Below, piece by piece: positions 32,817 through 41,098 of a stretch of DNA of 64,000 nt (position 1 is its first letter; the number at the start of each line of letters is the position of its first letter). The notes under the pieces were generated by a model, which was given only the letters and a program-made list of their open reading frames with translations, had not been told where the DNA came from and searched no databases. The translations under genes were made by a program, and so were the position numbers. The stretch lies in the NCBI GenBank assembly GCA_947381415.1, contig CANCVB010000001.1, forward strand, positions 1 to 64,000, in the 5' to 3' direction. The DNA comes from Burkholderiales bacterium. Lineage in GTDB: Bacteria > Pseudomonadota > Gammaproteobacteria > Burkholderiales > Burkholderiaceae_C.

Positions 32817-33482
32817 TCAGGTGCTGGGCGTTTCCTTGTACATCGCCAGCAAGGCCAGCAACTGGGCCTTGGGTTGGGCTTGCAAATAGGGCAATAACAA
32901 TCCCAGCACTTGCTGGGCGCCTCTGGAAACGCCGCCTTGTGCGTTGGCATCTTCCAAGGCGTGGCGCGGATCGCGGACATATTCATAGCTAAGCCACCAG
33001 GTCAGCATGACCAGCATATGGGTGGCACTGCTGTCGCGTTCCGTGGGGTTTTGGCTCAAGCCCCCTTTGTCGTTTAAACCAGCCAGTAAGCTCAAGAATG
33101 CGTCGCGCTTGTCGGACAGCACCTGCTTGATTTGCTGTTCCAGTGGGCGGTATTTGCTGAGCAAATCATTCAGGTCGCGGTACAAAAACCGGTAGCGCCA
33201 GACCAGTTCGAAAAGTGAGTGCATGAAAAACCAGGCGTCTTCCAAATCGTTGACGTTTTCTGCGGCGGGCAGTAAGGCCTGCAAATCATGCTGGTAATAA
33301 CCAAACAAGGTGTTGACGATGTCTTCCTTGCCCGGGTAGTGGTAGTACAAATTGCCGGGACTGATCCCTAACTCTGCCGCCACCATGGTGGTGGCTACAT
33401 TGGGTTCGCCAAAGCGATTAAACAGGCCCAAGGCACTGGCCAGAATGCGCTCAGCGGTGCGGCGAGGCGCTTTGCTGGCCAT
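32817..33482 (-). CDS. TetR/AcrR family transcriptional regulator
   Basis: 221 residues. The N-terminal helix-turn-helix (about residues 9-55) has the family pattern RILASALGLFNRFGEPNVATT, then ELGISPGNLYYHYPGKEDI. The C-terminal ligand domain is helical. It lies six bases after the phasin gene on the same strand and is probably co-transcribed with it, so it may regulate storage-granule or fatty-acid genes; this is inference from position. It is not PhaR, which has a different fold. Confidence 0.85.
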   Translation of the reverse strand: MASKAPRRTAERILASALGLFNRFGEPNVATTMVAAELGISPGNLYYHYPGKEDIVNTLFGYYQHDLQALLPAAENVNDLEDAWFFMHSLFELVWRYRFLYRDLNDLLSKYRPLEQQIKQVLSDKRDAFLSLLAGLNDKGGLSQNPTERDSSATHMLVMLTWWLSYEYVRDPRHALEDANAQGGVSRGAQQVLGLLLPYLQAQPKAQLLALLAMYKETPST

Positions 33483-33488
33483 GGTGCG

Positions 33489-33884
33489 CTAGGGCTTGCG
33501 CTCGGCCAACTGTTTTTCCAATTGGTCAACCCGCGCTTGCAAATCAGCCAGGTCTTGGGCGCTGGGCAGGCCCATGCTTTTCAAAGCTTTGGCCACACGT
33601 TCTTCAAAAATACTTTCCAACTTGTCGAATTGGCCGCTGGCTGTTTGCCCCATTTGGGCGGCCATGTGACCCATTTTTTCAGCAGCCTCGCTCATTTTGG
33701 CTTGCGCTTGCTGGGTGGTTTGTTGCAACTGCGAACCCTCTTTGACCAGGTTTTCAAACACCTTGGTGCCTTCTTCTTGGGCTTTGGCAAACGCGCCCAG
33801 ACCCGCCAGCCAGATGTGCTGCGCCGAGTCTTTCATGCGTTGGCTCATGTCCTGAGGATCGAATTCGGGGGGTGTGCTGGCCAT
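33489..33884 (-). CDS. Phasin-like polyhydroxyalkanoate granule protein (PhaF/PhaI type)
   Basis: 131 residues from the ATG at 33884, which has AGGAG nine bases upstream; an extended frame reaching 33947 lacks such a site. The protein is almost wholly helical. WLAGLGAFAKAQEEGTKVFENLVKEG (given as its key residues W, GLGA, KAQEEG) is the hallmark of PhaF/PhaI granule-associated proteins. A Met/Gln/Ala-rich amphipathic region and a C-terminal leucine-zipper-like coiled coil (LADLQARVDQLEKQLAE) follow. Such proteins coat PHA granules and affect their size and segregation. It is divergent from the RfaH-like gene. Confidence 0.85.
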   Translation of the reverse strand: MASTPPEFDPQDMSQRMKDSAQHIWLAGLGAFAKAQEEGTKVFENLVKEGSQLQQTTQQAQAKMSEAAEKMGHMAAQMGQTASGQFDKLESIFEERVAKALKSMGLPSAQDLADLQARVDQLEKQLAERKP

Positions 33885-34011
33885 AAGAACTCCTGAAAGT
33901 GGGCGAAATTCATCATAGTCCACACCAAGCCTATAGAAACTGAGCAATATCCAACTGGTGCGAAAAGGAAGCCTCTACAATTGTCAGACTAAAAAAGTTA
34001 AAGTCCAAGCC

Positions 34012-34497
34012 ATGTTGTGGTACGCCGTCCATTCTCGACCCAAGCAAGAACACCGCGCCTTGGAAAATCTGCAAAACCAAGGCTATGAAGCTTGGTTGCC
34101 TATGATCACCCTGGAAAAATTGCGCCGTGGCCGACTCACTGAGGTGGTCGAGCCCATGTTCAGCCGCTATTTGTTCATTCGTTTGGACACAGAACACACC
34201 AACTGGTCACCCATTCGCTCCACCTTGGGGGTGAGCCGATTGGTGAGTTTTGGCAACCGCCCCGCCCCGATTTCCGATGTGCTGATCCAAACCTTGCGCA
34301 GCATGCCCGAACGCCCCCCTGAAAAGCTGTTGCAACCCGGCCAAGCGGTGCGCATGGTTGACGGCCCGCTCAAAGGCTTGGACGGCGTGTACCAACAAGC
34401 CGATGGCGAACAACGCGCCATGGTGCTGATTGATTTAATGAGCAAACAGCATTTGGTCAGCGTGCAAACCCAGCATGTATTTCCGGCCAGCATGTGA
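34012..34497 (+). CDS. rfaH: RfaH-like (NusG family) transcription antiterminator
   Basis: 161 residues from the ATG at 34012. The N-terminal NGN domain starts LWYAVHSRPKQEHRALENL and contains GYEAWLP and FSRYLFIRLD, the pattern of RfaH and other specialised NusG paralogues. The C-terminal KOW domain (about 108-160) has GQAVRMVDGPLKGLDGVYQQ. RfaH-type proteins bind RNA polymerase paused at an ops site and suppress Rho-dependent termination in long surface-polysaccharide operons. Here it heads an operon with an UppS-type gene (overlap at 34494-34500). No ops-like sequence was found nearby. A possible -10 box TACAAT lies at 33976-33981. The gene could instead be a housekeeping-like NusG paralogue, but true NusG normally lies next to secE. 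Confidence 0.82.
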   Translation: MLWYAVHSRPKQEHRALENLQNQGYEAWLPMITLEKLRRGRLTEVVEPMFSRYLFIRLDTEHTNWSPIRSTLGVSRLVSFGNRPAPISDVLIQTLRSMPERPPEKLLQPGQAVRMVDGPLKGLDGVYQQADGEQRAMVLIDLMSKQHLVSVQTQHVFPASM

Positions 34498-34499
34498 AA

Positions 34500-35276
34500 A
34501 TGAATACGCAGCCCAAGCATATTGCGATCATCATGGACGGCAATGGCCGATGGGCCAAAAAGCGCTTGATGCCACGCACCGTTGGCCACGCACGAGGCGC
34601 TGCCAATGTGCGACATATTGTCAAAACCGCCCATGCCATGGGTGTGCGCTACCTCACCTTGTTTGCCTTCAGTTCTGAAAATTGGCGACGCCCCCCTGAA
34701 GAAGTGTCGGCCTTGATGGGCTTGTTTTTGCAGTACTTGGCCTCGGAAGTTGCTGAAATGCGTGCCGCCGGTATTCGTTTGCGCGTGATTGGCGACCGCA
34801 GCGCATTTGCGCCTTTGTTGCAGTCTCGCATTGACCAAGCCGAGCACGACACCGCTGACAACGACGGTTTGCACCTGACCATCGCCGCCAATTACGGTGG
34901 GCAATGGGATGTATTGACCGCGGTGCGAGCTTGGCAAGCTGCCCACCCTGAGCGTTCCTTGCAAGAATTGGACCCCGCAGGATTGGCCACGCATTTAAGC
35001 ACCGCTGAGCTGCCCGACCCTGAGTTACTCATTCGCACGGGAGGGGAGTCACGCATCAGCAATTTCTTGCTGTGGCAAACCGCCTACACCGAGTTGTATT
35101 TCACCGATGTGCATTGGCCAGATTTTGACGACGCCGCTTTAAACAAGGCTGTGCAGTGGTATGCCCAACGGGTACGTCGGTTCGGCCGTACCGATGAACA
35201 GGTGCTACAGCCCTATTCAGCAGAGCATCACCCCTCAACAGCGCTGGTTATCGAGAAAGACATCAAGATAGGCTAA
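34500..35276 (+). CDS. uppS: Isoprenyl (undecaprenyl) diphosphate synthase, UppS family
   Basis: 258 residues from ATG 34500; a GTG at 34494 overlapping the rfaH stop is an equally possible start, and neither has a good Shine-Dalgarno. Cis-prenyltransferases make the undecaprenyl carrier for cell-wall and polysaccharide units. Motifs: HIAIIMDGNGRWAK with the catalytic Asp13, GHARGAANV, LFAFSSENWRRP, and RTGGESRISNFLLWQ with the diphosphate-binding Arg. A C-terminal extension of about 25 residues is hydrophilic. In most proteobacteria the housekeeping uppS lies beside frr and cdsA; finding one coupled to rfaH suggests either a relocated gene or a second copy supplying a surface polysaccharide. 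Confidence 0.9.
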   Translation: MNTQPKHIAIIMDGNGRWAKKRLMPRTVGHARGAANVRHIVKTAHAMGVRYLTLFAFSSENWRRPPEEVSALMGLFLQYLASEVAEMRAAGIRLRVIGDRSAFAPLLQSRIDQAEHDTADNDGLHLTIAANYGGQWDVLTAVRAWQAAHPERSLQELDPAGLATHLSTAELPDPELLIRTGGESRISNFLLWQTAYTELYFTDVHWPDFDDAALNKAVQWYAQRVRRFGRTDEQVLQPYSAEHHPSTALVIEKDIKIG

Positions 35277-35284
35277 TATTGCAA

Positions 35285-35323
35285 CTGCAGGCAATAAGCC
35301 ACATTAGTTTCGAGCGCCTGCAG
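35285..35323 (+). repeat. Inverted repeat in the uppS-NYN gap
   Basis: CTGCAGGC at 35285-35292 and GCCTGCAG at 35316-35323 are perfect complements separated by 23 bases, starting nine bases after the uppS stop. Together with the hairpin at 35331-35345 it gives the 113-base gap two tandem structures. It could stop or process the uppS transcript or form a structured leader of the NYN gene. Confidence 0.4.
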
Positions 35324-35330
35324 CTCGTCC

Positions 35331-35345
35331 GGGCATGGTATGCCC
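35331..35345 (+). terminator. Compact hairpin before the NYN gene
   Basis: GGGCAT-GGT-ATGCCC is a perfect 6-bp stem with a 3-base loop. A run of six T residues (35357-35362) follows only after 11 bases, which is too far for a classical intrinsic terminator. It lies 45 bases before the NYN start codon. Confidence 0.4.
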
Positions 35346-35389
35346 CACTTTCATAGTTTTTTAAACACGCCACCGACAGGTAACCCTAG

Positions 35390-36253
35390 ATGAAGACTGA
35401 AATTCGCGCAACGCATCCTCGCAAGGAACATGCCCCGACCCGCAATGGCCGTTGCATTGCCTTGATCGATAGCAACTACATGGCTTGGTTGCTCAAGCAA
35501 GGCAGCGACACTGATGCCGAGCCAGAAACCTATAACCGCCAAGCCTTGATTCCCACCTTGACGCAGACCTTGAAACAAGCAGGTTTGGGTCTGGATGTGC
35601 AACGTGTTTATTGGTATACCGACAACCCTGACAGCCAGTTCCCCCAAGACCAAATCGTGCGTGTGCTCGATGTGACCAGCGGCGAACCCAGCGAAGTGGT
35701 GTTCGCGGCCATGTCTGCGGATATTGCCCGCTTGTCAGAACGCAAGGCCTGCGAGCATTTGTTGGTGGCCAGCGATGACGATCGCTTAACCGCCAGCATC
35801 GATGAAGCCCAGTTGCATGGACTGAATGTGTACCTGTTGGCCGATGAGTCTGCGCGCCACATGGATCAACTCATCAACGAAGACCCTGCATGGTGCCGCT
35901 TGCTGGCCCAAGCGGATCGACGCGTATTGTTGATGCCCCAAGCAGCACGAGAGCTAACGGCCCAACCGCGTGCCGCGGCCGCAGTTGCCGCGCCGCAAGA
36001 CCCCGAACTGGTTCGCACCAAGTTGCAGGAAGTCGTCGATGGTTGGTGGGACGATGAGCCTGAAGATTTGCGCGAAGATTTGCGCGACGAATTGCGCGGC
36101 AGTCATGGCATTCCCCAAGAGGTAGACCGCCACATGCTGTTGCGTGTACGCCGTGCCCTTGACCGCCCTTTGAGTTTTCCCGAGAAAAAAATCTTGCGTG
36201 AAATGGTGCGCAACAAAGTGTTGGGCATCACCGAAGAAAGCATGCCTGCATGA
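35390..36253 (+). CDS. NYN domain protein (putative RNase)
   Basis: 287 residues. Residues about 20-185 form a NYN (PIN-like) nuclease domain: [14 protein letters not shown] with the first acidic residue, [15 protein letters not shown], and [19 protein letters not shown] with the second acidic cluster, then VYLLADES. After an Ala/Pro-rich linker (about 185-205) the C-terminal part is helical and charged ([26 protein letters not shown]). NYN proteins are metal-dependent RNases or RNA-binding proteins. The target is unknown. Its stop overlaps the rmlB start by four bases, so it is translated together with a rhamnose-precursor enzyme. No toxin-antitoxin partner is visible. Confidence 0.75.
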
Positions 36254-37311
36254 CCATTCTGGTGACCGGCGGGGCCGGTTTCATCGGGAGCAATTTTGTC
36301 CATGCCTGGTTAGCAGCGCAAGCGGAGGTATTGGTCAACCTGGACAAACTCACCTACGCTGGCAATTTACGCAACCTGCATGCCTTGGCAGGGGACGACA
36401 GACATTTTTTCGTGCAAGGCGATATTGGTGACACCACCTTGGTGAGCCAGTTGCTGGCAACCCACCAACCGCGTGCGGTGCTGCATTTCGCTGCCGAGTC
36501 GCACGTGGACCGCTCCATTCATGGCCCCATGGATTTCATCCAAACCAATGTGGTGGGCACGTTTCATTTGCTCGAATCTGTGCGGGCTTATTGGTCGGGC
36601 TTGGGCGGCACCGCACAGCAAGCGTTTCGGTTTTTGCATGTCAGCACCGACGAGGTTTTCGGCAGTTTGGCCGCAGACGCGCCAGCCTTCAGCGAAACCC
36701 ATGCATACGAACCCAACAGCCCTTACTCGGCCAGCAAGGCAGCCTCAGACCACCTGGTGCGCGCTTGGCACCACACCTATGGCCTGCCAGTACTCACCAC
36801 CCATTGCAGCAACAACTACGGCCCCTACCATTTCCCTGAAAAACTCATTCCGCTGGTGATTCACCATGCTTTGGCTGGTAAGCCTCTGCCCATTTACGGC
36901 GACGGCATGCAAGTACGCGATTGGCTGTATGTGCAAGACCATTGCAAGGCCCTCATGCGGGTGTTGCAAGCGGGACGCTTGGGGGAAACCTACAACATCG
37001 GCGGTTGGAATGAAAAACCCAATATCGAGGTGGTGCGTACCCTGTGCCGTTTGCTGGATGAATTGCAGCCTCGCAGCGATGGCCAGGCTTATGCAAACCA
37101 AATCACGTTTGTGAAAGACCGTGCAGGCCATGATCGTCGTTATGCGATAGACGCCCGCAAGATCGAGCAAGAGTTGGGCTGGCGCCCTGAAGAAAGCTTC
37201 GAGAGTGGTTTGCGAAAAACCGTGCAGTGGTACCTTGCCCATAGCGAGTGGGTGAAAGAGGTCACCAGTGGCTCATACCGCAACTGGATAGGCCAAAACT
37301 ATGGCAGCTGA
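36250..37311 (+). CDS. rmlB: dTDP-glucose 4,6-dehydratase
   Basis: 353 residues, standard length for RmlB, an extended SDR that converts dTDP-glucose to dTDP-4-keto-6-deoxyglucose. NAD-binding [11 protein letters not shown] is at the N-terminus. [12 protein letters not shown] and STDEVFG (active-site Thr-Asp-Glu) are present, and the catalytic YSASKAASD has the Tyr-x3-Lys pair. [12 protein letters not shown] and [11 protein letters not shown] are typical C-terminal motifs. The start overlaps the NYN gene and the end overlaps rmlD by 11 bases. rmlA and rmlC do not follow, as they would in a complete rmlBDAC set. Confidence 0.96.
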
Positions 37312-38197
37312 TGGCGTGTTGCTCTTTGGGGCAGACGGTCAGTTGGGTCATGTACTGCAAGCCGAGTTACCTGCTTTGGGCCGTTTGATACCGCTCACCT
37401 TGGCCGATGTGGATATAGCCGATGAAGAGGCCTTGCAGGCGGTGATTCGCCGCCATGCACCTCGCTATATCGTCAATGCGGCTGCTTACACCGCTGTTGA
37501 CAAAGCCGAGCAAGAGCCTGCAACAGCGCATGCCATCAATGCCACGGCGCCAGGCATCATGGCCAGCGAAGCCAAGGCCTTGGGCGCTACCTTGGTGCAC
37601 TATTCCACCGACTACGTTTTCAACGGACGGTCCCCTCGGCCCTACAAGGAAAGCGACGCCACCGACCCTTTGTCGGTCTATGGGCGCAGCAAGCGCGATG
37701 GCGATGCGCTAGTCATGGCGCAAGCCGGCGCTTATTTCATCTTTCGCAGTTCTTGGGTGGTGGGCGCGCATGGCGGCAATTTTTTAAAAACCATGTTGCA
37801 ATTAGCCCAAGAGCGTGAGAGCTTGCGTGTGGTTGCCGATCAGCAGGGCGCACCCACTTCGGCGCGTTGGATGGCCCAAGTCACCCGAGAGGTTTTGCAA
37901 AACCCCCATCACGCGGCCTTGCGTGGTCTGTACCACCTCAGCAATGCGGGGCACACCACTTGGCATGGCTATGCCCAGTATGTGCTGGCGCAGGCCGCGC
38001 AATTGGGTTGGCAATTGAAAGTGAGACCAGAGGCGATCAAGGCCATTTCGACCCAAGACTACCCCTTGCCTGCAGCCCGCCCTGCCAATTCCCTGTTGGA
38101 CACCGGTTTGGCACAGCACATCTTCGGCTTGGCAATACCTTCATGGCAATCGGGCGTGGACGAGGTGTTAAACAGCCTGCTTTTGCAGCGCTCGTGA
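37301..38197 (+). CDS. rmlD: dTDP-4-dehydrorhamnose reductase
   Basis: 298 residues. RmlD reduces dTDP-4-dehydro-rhamnose to dTDP-L-rhamnose. The nucleotide-binding motif is [10 protein letters not shown], followed by [28 protein letters not shown] and the catalytic [27 protein letters not shown] and [16 protein letters not shown] are family motifs. The start lies inside the end of rmlB. Directly after it, 14 bases away, a convergent gene begins its 3' end, so the operon stops here and rmlA/rmlC must be encoded elsewhere if the pathway is complete. Confidence 0.95.
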
Positions 38198-38211
38198 CGC
38201 TTTCAAGTTGC

Positions 38212-39012
38212 CTAACGGGAATACTGCCACTCCACCCCGATTTGTATGCGGCGGTTAATTGGCGTGTAAAAATCTTGGAAACCCGAGCGCAAGCTGTTGA
38301 CTTTGTCTGAGTCATCCACCCAAGTCCAGCGAATAAATGGGGAATAGGTACCGCTGGCGGTGGCGTAGTCGGCTTTGGTTTGAATATAAATGCCGGTGTG
38401 TTGGGTATTTTGGGTGTCAATATATGTGGCGGCATCGGTTTGTGACAATCGAGACAGATGTTTTCCCCACAATAAAAGCCCAGTATCCAGTGAAACGGTT
38501 TTGGCGGGGCCCAAACTGGGCCAGTTTTGCCCGCTGTCGCGCCAACGGACAGGCAGCCAGATCTGGGTGGATTGACGGTCGTAGCCGCTTTGGCCGGTAC
38601 TGGTGGCGCCTTCCAAATAATCGGAATGGGTATGCAAGGCCAGTCCATAAGAAATATTGAGCGATGCTTTTGTCGGCCATAAAACCCGCCAACGGGTTTC
38701 TATCTGGGGCACATTATGGACACTGCCATTGCTGTCGCTGGTGTATTTTTGTCGTCCCAATAAAGCATCGACTTCCAGGTTGGCTTGCCCCATTCGCGGT
38801 ACCGGCTGACTTCGCCAATGCAGGCCTGCTTCAGGCCCCATCAATTGCATTGATGGCTCGGCATAGCGTTGCACCCCCAGGCTGAGACTCCATGTGCCTA
38901 AAGGGTTTGGCGCGGTTTGCCCCCATGCCAAAAAGGGGGCAAGTAATAACAAAGCGCGGTAAATGTTATTCAGCCGGTTTGATTTCGGCTGAAGCCAATG
39001 TGCCGGCGGCAT
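38212..39012 (-). CDS. Predicted exported beta-rich (outer-membrane-like) protein; start uncertain
   Basis: The mature region is clear but the start is not. A signal-peptide-like stretch (NNIYRALLLLAPFLAWGQ, then TAPNPLG) begins right at the end of the H-NS gene. The nearest ATG is at 39012, inside that gene, giving 266 residues with a long N-terminal extension. Alternatives closer to the signal peptide are CTG at 38973, ATT at 38964 and TTG at 38952; none has a Shine-Dalgarno. The mature protein of about 235 residues alternates aromatic and polar residues (LGVQRYAEPS, YGLALHTHSDYLEG, PFIRWTWVDDSDKV) as beta-barrel strands do and ends GVEWQYSR. I do not recognise the family. It sits beside rhamnose genes. 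Confidence 0.55.
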   Translation of the reverse strand: MPPAHWLQPKSNRLNNIYRALLLLAPFLAWGQTAPNPLGTWSLSLGVQRYAEPSMQLMGPEAGLHWRSQPVPRMGQANLEVDALLGRQKYTSDSNGSVHNVPQIETRWRVLWPTKASLNISYGLALHTHSDYLEGATSTGQSGYDRQSTQIWLPVRWRDSGQNWPSLGPAKTVSLDTGLLLWGKHLSRLSQTDAATYIDTQNTQHTGIYIQTKADYATASGTYSPFIRWTWVDDSDKVNSLRSGFQDFYTPINRRIQIGVEWQYSR

Positions 39013-39349
39013 GCAAGGCTTGTACCCATTGAGGCATGCGGCCACGCCCTGTCCAGGCATTGGCAGGGTTGGCAGGGTCACGGTATTTAGGGGCGACTTT
39101 TTTACCAGCGGTGGCGCGTTTGGCTTTGGTGGTTTTGCTGCCCGTTGACTTGGTCGCCGCTTTTTTACCTTTTCCACCCAAAGCTGTTGCAATATCGGCA
39201 GCGGTTAAACCAGCGTTGTGGGCGATTTGAACGATTTGCGCCAAGGCTTTATCGTGGGTACGCGACATTAATCGCTTTTCTTCTTTTTCCAGTTTAATTC
39301 TGGCTGCGCGGATTTTTTCAAGTTGGGAAATGGGGCTGGTTCGTGCCAT
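38966..39349 (-). CDS. H-NS family nucleoid-associated protein
   Basis: 127 residues from the ATG at 39349, preceded by GGAGAT. Residues about 1-45 form a charged coiled-coil oligomerisation region (ISQLEKIRAARIKLEKEEKRL). A Lys/Ala/Thr-rich linker follows (about 60-85). The C-terminal DNA-binding domain has KYRDPANPANAWTGRGRMPQW, in which GRGR is the AT-hook-like loop that enters the minor groove. H-NS proteins silence AT-rich, often horizontally acquired DNA and commonly repress their own genes. The DNA directly upstream is the most AT-rich in the window, so autoregulation is likely. Its stop is close to or overlapping the start of the next gene on the same strand. Confidence 0.9.
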   Translation of the reverse strand: MARTSPISQLEKIRAARIKLEKEEKRLMSRTHDKALAQIVQIAHNAGLTAADIATALGGKGKKAATKSTGSKTTKAKRATAGKKVAPKYRDPANPANAWTGRGRMPQWVQALHAAGTLASAEIKPAE

Positions 39350-39359
39350 GAATATCTCC

Positions 39360-39470
39360 AGGTAATTAATTATTGAAAACCGATTATCTCCCAATTATTA
39401 ATAAAGAATATCTTTTTATTTTTATTATTAATATGAATAAATATTCAATTGAATATCAATAGGGGTCCAG
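39360..39470. promoter_or_regulatory. AT-rich regulatory region between hns-like gene and argB
   Basis: About 110 bases of extreme A+T richness (for example 39405-39455 consists almost only of A and T, with repeated ATTATTAAT and AATATTCAA patterns) in otherwise GC-rich DNA. It lies between the divergent H-NS-family gene and argB. It has the features of an H-NS nucleation site and probably holds the promoter of the hns-like gene, perhaps also elements for argB. No single -35/-10 pair stands out because many A/T hexamers fit. Confidence 0.55.
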
Positions 39471-39555
39471 CCGAATATGTTTGTGAGGGTGTAAACGCTT
39501 CTTCGCAGGGCGGTGTGAATGCGGCACAATCGGCCCAAACTGTTAAATACCCGCC

Positions 39556-40452
39556 ATGTCCCGACCAAACCTTGCCTTCATTGCCAACAGCGACAAAGCT
39601 GAAATCTTGGCCCGCGCCTTGCCCTATATCCGCAAGTTCCACGGCAAAACCTTGGTTATCAAATACGGCGGTAACGCCATGACGGACCCATTGCTGCAAG
39701 CAGGCTTTGCCCAGGATGTGGTGCTGCTCAAGCTCGTGGGCATGAACCCTGTGGTGGTGCATGGCGGCGGACCGCAAATTGAAAATGCTTTGCAACGCTT
39801 GGGCAAGAAGGGCGAGTTCATTCAAGGCATGCGGGTCACGGACGCGGAAACCATGGAGGTGGTGGAGTGGGTGTTGGCAGGTGAAGTGCAACAAGACATC
39901 GTGGGTTTGATCCACCAAGCCGGTGGCAAAGCGGTGGGCCTGACCGGGCGCGACGGCGGCATGATTCGCGCGCGCCAACTGAAAATGCAAGACGCCCAAG
40001 ACCCCACCAAGGAAGTCGATGTGGGTCAGGTCGGCGACATCGTCAGCATCGATCCCAGCGTGGTCAAAGCCTTGCAAGACGATGCCTTTATTCCGGTCAT
40101 CAGCCCCATCGGTTTTGGTGAAAACAATGAAAGCTACAACATCAATGCCGACCTGGTCGCCTCCAAGCTCGCCACGGTGTTGAAGGCGGAAAAACTGGTG
40201 TTGTTGACCAATACCGAGGGCGTGTTGGACAAGGCTGGCAACCTGTTGCGCGATTTGAGCGCGCGCCAAATCGACGCTTTGTTTGCCGATGGCACCTTGA
40301 GCGGTGGCATGCTGCCCAAAATCAGTGGCGCTTTGGACGCGGCCAAAAGTGGGGTGAGTTCTGTGCATATCATTGATGGACGGGTGCCCCATGTGTTGTT
40401 GTTGGAAATCTTGACCGAACAAGCGTTTGGTACCCTGATCCGTTCGCACTGA
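39556..40452 (+). CDS. argB: Acetylglutamate kinase
   Basis: 298 residues. ArgB phosphorylates N-acetyl-L-glutamate in arginine synthesis. Amino-acid kinase motifs are visible: [11 protein letters not shown] near residue 32, [10 protein letters not shown] near 71-80, [10 protein letters not shown] near 131-140, [12 protein letters not shown] near 195-206, and [13 protein letters not shown] near 216. The C-terminal [18 protein letters not shown] is conserved. The start ATG follows about 90 bases of normal composition after the AT-rich segment. slmA follows 16 bases later, a pairing known in Burkholderiales. Confidence 0.97.
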
Positions 40453-40468: not shown

Positions 40469-41098
40469 ATGGCCTCAGCGCAAACCAGCAGCGCATCCTC
40501 TGATGCACCGGCCACGCCACGCAAGCGACCCAAACCGGGTGAGCGTCGTATTCAAATTTTGCAAACGCTGGCTGCCATGCTTGAACAGCCCGGCGCTGAA
40601 CGGGTCACCACCGCCGCATTGGCTGCACGCTTGGCGGTCTCAGAGGCCGCGCTTTACCGGCATTTCGCCAGCAAGGCGCAGATGTTTGAAGGTTTGATCG
40701 AGTTCATTGAAACCAGCGTGTTTGGTTTGCTGAACCAAATCGCTGAGCGCAGCGATGCACCGGCCATCAAAGCGCGTCACATGGTGACGGTGGTGTTGCA
40801 GTTTGCCGAGCGCAACCCCGGCATGGCGCGGGTGATGGTGGGTGACGCCTTGGTGTTTGAAAACGACCGGTTAGGGCTGCGCATGAACCAGTTTTTCGAG
40901 CGTTTTGAATCCAGCTTGCGCCAAGTGTGGCGTGACCAAGCACAGGCCACCGCTTCTTTGACACCAACGGTGCAAGCCAATGTACAGGCTTCGGTGCTGG
41001 TGTCGTTTGTGGTGGGGCGCTTGCAGCGCTTTGCCCGTAGTGGTTACAAGCGCGTACCCACCGAGCATTTAGAGGCCAGCTTGGCCCTGCTCACATAA
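40469..41098 (+). CDS. slmA: Nucleoid occlusion factor SlmA (TetR family)
   Basis: 209 residues. SlmA binds specific chromosomal sites and blocks FtsZ assembly over the nucleoid. The N-terminal HTH has the SlmA-type sequence GERRIQILQTLAAML, then TTAALAARLAVSEAALYRHFASKAQMFEGLIEF. The Ser/Pro-rich start (SSASSDAPATPRKRPKP) is common in betaproteobacterial SlmA. AAGGAG lies seven bases before the ATG. The end overlaps the convergent uxaA-like gene by eight bases. Confidence 0.9.
   Translation: MASAQTSSASSDAPATPRKRPKPGERRIQILQTLAAMLEQPGAERVTTAALAARLAVSEAALYRHFASKAQMFEGLIEFIETSVFGLLNQIAERSDAPAIKARHMVTVVLQFAERNPGMARVMVGDALVFENDRLGLRMNQFFERFESSLRQVWRDQAQATASLTPTVQANVQASVLVSFVVGRLQRFARSGYKRVPTEHLEASLALLT

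Follow-up and report, generated by a model that had tools for sequence, protein, structure and literature searches.

Polysaccharide operons under RfaH-ops control in Escherichia coli include rfb, waa, and kps. NusG paralogues of the UpxY, LoaP, and TaA types are encoded inside the locus that they control. In pathogenic E. coli, RfaH counters H-NS during elongation, according to the accessible part of PMC9765446, and in the survey of Wang et al. (2020, PMC7593976, accessible part) the RfaH cluster CL6 neighbors undecaprenyl pyrophosphate synthase and H-NS genes. Here, we examine a locus of this kind, with an rfaH-type gene, an undecaprenyl-diphosphate synthase gene (uppS), an NYN-like gene, rmlB, rmlD, and an H-NS family gene (hns), at positions 33885 to 39555 of a 64,000-nucleotide (nt) stretch of DNA from a Burkholderiales bacterium (assembly GCA_947381415.1, contig CANCVB010000001.1, positions 1 to 64,000). 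The whole stretch is referred to below as the window.

The locus shares its uppS and H-NS neighbors with CL6, and to judge from the available portion of the 2020 account the present RfaH group is likely identical with it. Because CL6 was reported then, the rfaH-uppS-H-NS neighborhood as such was already known; adjoining ops elements, cargo turnover, and a sole-copy uppS are not mentioned for CL6 in that portion. As in the E. coli operons, the locus encodes an RfaH family protein, and in six full-size sister loci a long polysaccharide operon is headed by the canonical ops 12-mer or one change of it. Unlike in E. coli, rfaH is here the first gene of the target locus and not an orphan, three of the four ops-contacting side chains of the protein differ, and in the window both ops and polymer cargo are lacking. 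The location inside the locus recalls UpxY, LoaP, and TaA, but the window protein scores as RfaH, above the curated equivalog cutoff of TIGR01955 (Table 1) and below those for UpxY (80.1 versus 100) and LoaP (50.1 versus 125). The comparisons that follow indicate that the window region is probably a collapsed form of a chromosomal surface-polysaccharide locus.

A scan with the NYN-like protein returned 42 loci. Among the first 19, from near relatives, rfaH stands directly 5′ of uppS in all 17 that reach that far and rmlB stands 3′ of NYN in all 18 that do; one near relative (L012) has rmlA and rmlC between rmlD and hns. Across the genus the locus has fixed ends, tetR-phasin and rfaH-uppS to the left, NYN-argB-slmA to the right, with variable cargo between uppS and NYN. 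Nothing lies between the two genes in six NYN-only loci (L131, L138, L139, L142, L143, and L145). Nine loci, a group of our own choosing, are full (G011, G042, G133, G210, G212, G218, G219, G227, and G241); behind rfaH-uppS, they contain genes for polysaccharide export or chain length, for polymerases, or for sugar transferases, often together with rmlBDAC. Labels in relatives come from BLAST against the window genes and one annotated E. coli cluster (L171), some genes being named by eye, and an unlabeled open reading frame (ORF) does not signify absence of a gene. A Pfam check of sampled labels recovered Wza-type export and Wzz proteins in G011 and Wzx, Wzy, and a CapD/PglF-type protein in G042. 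The downstream extension was examined in eight of the nine full loci (all but G227), omitting the middle 27 kb of G011 (C22 45000-72000). Five of them (G133, G210, G218, G042, and G011) reach NYN-argB, about 23 to 51 kb past uppS, NYN marking the right end of the cargo beside argB; G212, G219, and G241 do not reach it within the sequence examined. The lowest-GC 2-kb bin falls to 33 to 41% in seven of the eight full loci profiled, versus 52 to 64% around rfaH and the left flank, and the examined part of the G011 locus head is not AT-rich. Between phasin and argB in the window, by contrast with the full loci, no glycosyltransferase, flippase, polymerase, or export gene was recognized. The tie to surface polysaccharide that had been read from the window sequence alone is thus borne out by the relatives, several of them with ops, and not by the window itself.

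In a survey of 57 genus genomes of at least 85% completeness (RfaH at E ≤1e-25, uppS at E ≤1e-15), RfaH was found in 37 (38 places) and uppS in 47. Of the 38 RfaH places, 26 have uppS within 250 bp downstream and 4 have it 1.6 to 3.9 kb off; it lies elsewhere in 7, among them G036, which is interrupted by contig ends, and was not found for 1. Two loci (G032 and G221) were classed by eye as type-1-secretion/giant-protein loci; L129 and L130 are two places of one genome. In a family sample of 150 genomes, 16 carry RfaH, 2 of them of the window's own genus, and uppS adjoins RfaH in none of the 14 from other genera. Scattering of the genes in neighboring genera had been named as a sign against the sequence-only reading; by these counts that sign is half borne out, synteny being conserved in near relatives. 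Polysaccharide genes lie near four of seven other-genus RfaH loci (G062, G087, G140, and G183, with partly weak labels of about 30% identity), and none is visible near the remaining three.

The canonical ops element (GGCGGTAGCnTG, at most one mismatch) stands 49 to 56 nt 5′ of uppS in six of the nine full loci (G042, G133, G210, G218, G219, and G227; GGCGGTAGCGTG or at most one mismatch). Random 160-nt stretches from the same loci matched at this level in 4 of 1,400 cases. Within 150 nt 5′ of uppS, no ops-like site closer than two mismatches was found in 18 loci of the window clade, in 6 NYN-only and 6 other rfaH-uppS loci, or in 13 uppS-without-rfaH, 6 Limnohabitans-type, and 12 frr-type loci; the uppS-without-rfaH group includes three polysaccharide-type loci (L153, L154, and L164), likewise without ops. 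The window locus itself yielded no ops element. Within one genus, loci thus range from full through reduced to empty, and ops was seen before uppS only in full ones. As a separate observation, the similarity of ops sites from three genomes of different genera or families (L120:8194-, L144:11456+, and L188:6919+) extends into the preceding sequence, roughly cttgctgatcgtgaa.cggcatGGCGGTAGCGT. Next to it, L120 and L144 each have a small ORF whose first residues are alike, and the three-genome element resembles the head of a mobile operon.

The second line of evidence concerns uppS. A single uppS match was found in the window's own genome, where frr is followed directly by cdsA (named by eye) and the frr-linked uppS is missing. 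The order pyrH-frr-uppS-cdsA-dxr was seen in 12 of 15 hand-picked uppS loci from other genera of the family. In a tree of 69 UppS sequences hand-chosen from the loci at hand (the short L016 was dropped), frr-linked enzymes (20 rows, six families) separate from an alternate type (49 rows), to which the window protein belongs, with support of 100/99. G080, G158, and G196 carry both types, the alternate copy lying beside wza, wzc, or sugar-transferase genes, and the only copy in G138 lies beside rmlA-rmlC. Within the genus, full and reduced loci largely correspond to two UppS groups, with moderate support only. Because alternate uppS genes outside the genus mostly sit in polysaccharide clusters, the simplest reading is that a locus-borne UppS took over the housekeeping role and that cargo loss in the window branch came afterwards. 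The enzyme as a second, dedicated carrier synthase was ruled out, only one copy having been found; for the same reason, uppS is unlikely to be switched off together with a surface polymer. Its essentiality would follow from the single copy and the known pathway.

In this reconstruction, whose direction (loss here) we infer, the window branch would have kept both constant ends and lost the polymer-assembly genes together with ops, leaving rmlB and rmlD as the only cargo, now between NYN and argB. The polysaccharide-cluster-type UppS would have replaced the frr-linked housekeeping enzyme as the only undecaprenyl-diphosphate synthase found, and the sole uppS likely anchors the locus and may explain the persistence of the remnant. 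A normally essential envelope enzyme would thereby have been replaced, apparently, by an accessory-locus copy, which would couple the accessory locus to viability. A more far-reaching version, which we offer as a conjecture and consider rather doubtful, is that a UppS paralogue of RfaH-headed polysaccharide loci displaced the housekeeping UppS and thereby lodged the lipid-carrier supply for peptidoglycan in a surface locus, that lineages later losing the polymer genes could not delete it, and that a latch-intact RfaH now works on uppS or on trans targets through a signal other than E. coli ops. The ops-cargo pattern, the uppS takeover, and the cargo-less RfaH are apparently new. In the open PMC literature, our searches brought up nothing on the ops-cargo pattern or uppS replacement, no paper pairing RfaH with uppS, Limnohabitans, or betaproteobacteria, or ops with Burkholderiales, and none on Limnohabitans polysaccharide genomic islands; among the papers listed on UppS paralogues in exopolysaccharide clusters, titles and abstract openings do not mention replacement of a housekeeping gene.

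Several observations weigh against collapse of an ops-headed polysaccharide locus. Three of the nine full loci (G011, G212, and G241) lack ops before uppS: an exact match lies at the very start of wza in G212 and upstream of ugd in G241, and G011 has none at the locus head and a match at L123:11434, upstream of hipO and outside the locus. In G240 (L149), which was classed as "other" and shows no ops, a wza-like gene adjoins uppS; counting this locus as full would bring the proportion to 6 of 10. Because all six ops-bearing loci fall in one UppS clade, the link between ops and cargo amounts to roughly a single lineage; that clade may have acquired ops, instead of the window branch having lost it. 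Of the four side chains by which E. coli RfaH contacts ops, the RfaH of this genus lacks three. A scan of the window's own genome covering 1,353,174 bases (2,000 counted twice) of 2,513,546, or about 54%, gave 3 matches to the ops core and, allowing one mismatch, 27 sites. Each of the 27 is covered by an open frame of 150 codons or more (some of these frames may be spurious), and a trans ops target was thus not found in the roughly 1.35 Mb, of 2.51 Mb, that were scanned. The own genome still has two Wzy_C and two GT1 matches, so that a surface polymer may yet be made. In G171 the sole uppS is of the alternate type and has no polysaccharide neighbors. Finally, a uppS match is missing from 10 of the 57 genus genomes, some rated 96 to 100% complete, as against its presence in 150 of 150 in the family sample; the ten (G037, G038, G045, G216, G217, G222, G224, G234, G236, and G237, at E 1e-15) are probably fragmented bins that lost a variable locus, which is an assumption.

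What RfaH does in the window is a separate matter. In E. coli, K10, H20, R23, and R73 have roles in the contact with ops (PMC5995543, accessible part). The corresponding residues in the window protein are R, N, N, and L, the change of K10 to R being conservative, and those in the RfaH proteins of the ops-bearing sisters are the retained K10, N20, N23, and L73 or F73. Because these sisters share N20, N23, and L/F73, the missing E. coli side chains need not mean missing ops recognition; E. coli-type reading of ops is not claimed for the window RfaH. A protein without three of the four E. coli contact side chains, yet with ops in sister loci, would provide a natural test of how RfaH reads DNA, in what looks like an RfaH-ops system of environmental betaproteobacteria. 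At the latch, the window protein keeps E48, I93, R138, and L142 and has a conservative change of F130 to Y. An AlphaFold2 model from an 18-row alignment gave the C-terminal domain two strands at low confidence (predicted local distance difference test score [pLDDT], about 35 to 60), too low to speak for or against fold switching. The nonsynonymous-to-synonymous substitution ratio (dN/dS) of rfaH is 0.02 to 0.13 in five window-type pairs and that of uppS 0.03 to 0.11, pairs giving no value (gene missing or dS saturated) falling outside these counts; by this measure, the window rfaH is under purifying selection.

Since the autoinhibition residues are intact, we favor a trans role, at some other place in the genome, an option that comes first among three while falling somewhat short of probable. 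Alternatively, RfaH might act in cis on its own transcript without ops, raising processivity and translation of uppS-NYN-rmlBD. Such a mode would suit rfaH as the first gene, 2 nt before uppS, its conservation although ops is missing, the changed ops-contact side chains, and a likeness to putative monomorphic RfaH proteins whose genes lie next to their targets (PMC13015549, accessible part). It would also suit G011, a full locus without ops at its head whose RfaH has V and C in place of E48 and R138; this single case fits the idea of an unlatched RfaH working in cis, as put forward in the accessible part of that 2026 preprint. The intact E48, I93, R138, and L142 of the window protein speak against action in cis, which we regard as possible at best, with the odds against it. 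Lastly, rfaH could be vestigial and kept only through cotranscription or translational coupling with an essential uppS. The 2-nt spacing and the negative result for ops agree with this, but the frame is intact and its dN/dS resembles that of uppS, making disuse improbable. Of the three, trans action thus remains our preference.

The remaining cargo has a predicted use that calls for no polymer. The rmlA and rmlC genes of the own genome lie on another contig, beside genes resembling ugd and galU. RmlB and RmlD, with RmlA and RmlC supplied from there, would make dTDP-L-rhamnose, which would serve at least EarP, in the activation of EF-P by rhamnosylation, and perhaps lipopolysaccharide (LPS). 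dTDP-L-rhamnose is the EarP substrate (PMC8184846, accessible part). EarP was found in 56 of the 57 genus genomes, and in the own genome earP adjoins, by eye, a gene for EF-P with an arginine-type loop. As in the Pseudomonas putida system treated in the accessible part of that paper, rml genes, EarP, and an arginine-type EF-P occur in one genome; unlike there, rmlBD stand behind rfaH-uppS-NYN, apart from rmlAC. The rml genes as proof of a surface polymer were ruled out, the EarP/EF-P sink being sufficient. It could nonetheless be that the locus was split and not reduced in function, its rml genes and UppS still contributing to a rhamnose-bearing LPS or O-polysaccharide whose biosynthetic enzymes have their genes at other sites. 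The two Wzy_C matches and a small core-LPS-like cluster seen by eye (GT1, GT9-like, GT2, and msbA-like) point that way. There are only two GT1 matches genome-wide, however, and no rhamnosyltransferase turned up, though no search was aimed at one; a split of this kind appears unlikely to us, and the collapse of the locus is the reading that we retain.

The sequence-only reading of the window had combined rfaH, hns, uppS, NYN, and rmlBD into one on/off system for a rhamnose-containing surface polymer in which RfaH opposes local silencing by H-NS. The gene order is conserved in near relatives, and the full-cargo sisters, with AT-rich cargo in seven of eight profiled and ops before uppS in six, match the circumstances under which H-NS is countered by RfaH in E. 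coli (PMC9765446, accessible part). The window does not: its rfaH to rmlD genes have an average GC content (55.6 to 58.3%, versus 56.9% for the window), no assembly gene was recognized in the locus, ops was not found, uppS is the sole copy, rmlAC lie elsewhere, and rhamnose has the EarP/EF-P sink. In the own genome PF00816 finds the H-NS gene alone, the match being confined to the C-terminal motif (30 of 38 profile positions), and no hns was labeled in the NYN-only loci. The switch is therefore very unlikely, and H-NS as a local partner or silencer was rejected on the grounds of sole match, average operon GC, and the unlabeled hns. H-NS is probably a global protein that belongs to this locus by gene order only. 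A neighborhood of rfaH, uppS, rml genes, and hns need not, as a caution, be an active surface-polymer switch.

The very AT-rich end that had also been noted is real: 110 bp from position 39351 in the hns-argB gap are the AT maximum of the window. Within the locus only this gap is AT-rich, and the window contains one other separate 110-bp stretch of at least 62% AT (64%). The best 110 bp of the same gap have an AT fraction of 0.68 to 0.88 in all 13 relatives measured (11 distinct). A conserved AT-rich hns promoter suggests self-regulation.

The coordinates are collected in Table 1, and the gene list first drawn up from the sequence (rfaH, uppS, NYN-like, rmlB, and rmlD on the plus strand, exported protein and H-NS family gene on the minus strand) stands.

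Table 1. Features of the locus and its flanks, in window coordinates
Feature	Position	Strand	Evidence or remark
tetR	32817-33482		Left flank of locus, beside phasin gene
Phasin gene	33489-33881	-	Fixed left flank; PF05597, 7.6e-42; same neighbor in near relatives and full-cargo sisters
Phasin/rfaH intergenic region	33885-34011		Opening bases of the region under study
rfaH-type NusG paralogue, 161 aa	34012-34497	+	TIGR01955, 161.8 bits versus cutoff 144.5
uppS, alternate (polysaccharide-locus) type	34500-35276	+	TIGR00055, 279.5 bits versus cutoff 109.55
uppS-NYN leader with inverted repeat at 35286-35322	35277-35389	+	19 near loci aligned
NYN-like protein, 287 aa	35390-36253	+	29-sequence alignment and fold match to 2qip
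rmlB, dTDP-glucose 4,6-dehydratase	36250-37311	+	TIGR01181, 499.4 bits versus cutoff 365.1
rmlD, dTDP-4-dehydrorhamnose reductase	37301-38197	+	TIGR01214, 312.8 bits versus cutoff 224.05
Exported protein, no family match, start codon uncertain	38212-about 38973	-	Signal-peptide-like N terminus, by eye
H-NS family protein, 127 aa	38966-39349	-	PF00816, 49.5 bits versus cutoff 25.6
hns-argB intergenic region	39350-39555		39351-39460, 83% AT
argB	39556-40452	+	Fixed right flank; TIGR00761, NF007015
slmA	40469-41098		Right flank, beside argB

Among the plus-strand genes, there are overlaps of 4 nt between NYN and rmlB and 11 nt between rmlB and rmlD, and a gap of 113 nt between uppS and NYN. No Rfam element was found in the window at gathering thresholds, and consensus promoters and terminators were no commoner there than in shuffled sequence.

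The NYN-like protein has no Pfam match up to E 10. Its predicted fold (mean pLDDT, 80) has as best Foldseek match in the PDB 2qip/VPA0982, at E 2.4e-4 and a template modeling (TM) score of 0.61 by target length and 0.37 by query length, and D27, D129, D130, and D152 are invariant in the 29-sequence alignment. The match 2qip is an NYN-type protein. The inverted repeat of the leader, TGCAGGC-N23-GCCTGCA, starts 10 nt after the uppS stop codon. Of 19 near loci, 15 have it unchanged, L004 and L017 differ by one base, and in L007 and L016 it is broken. It is possibly a target of the NYN protein itself. A structured RNA was discounted at a folding z-score of -0.77. The repeats that precede NYN in other clades are different ones (GGGTTCGCAGACCC in Limnohabitans and ACCCG...CGGG in NYN-only loci). 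A TAATAT motif at 35274-35279, across the uppS stop codon, is invariant in all 19 near loci and could be the -10 element of an internal promoter.

The exported protein matched neither a Pfam nor an NCBIfam family, nor any PDB chain at an E value under 0.5; among the 42 loci it was matched in L003, L004, L005, L016, and L019. Its start is uncertain because the frame would open at a CTG overlapping the hns stop codon (38966-38973), an overlap that makes translational coupling possible.

In Limnohabitans-type loci (L021-L041), which have no rfaH match, an H-NS family gene mostly lies directly before the alternate uppS and NYN a few kb further on; L039 carries rmlA-rmlC between uppS and NYN. In G011, two small ORFs between phasin and rfaH (L123 7594-8417) resemble, by eye, a HEPN/MNT toxin-antitoxin pair. 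This Comamonadaceae locus, or its NYN gene, occurs at 42 to 96% identity in public bins named Rickettsia typhi, Bordetella parapertussis, and Singulisphaera (L001, L018, L019, and L028), and these names look wrong.

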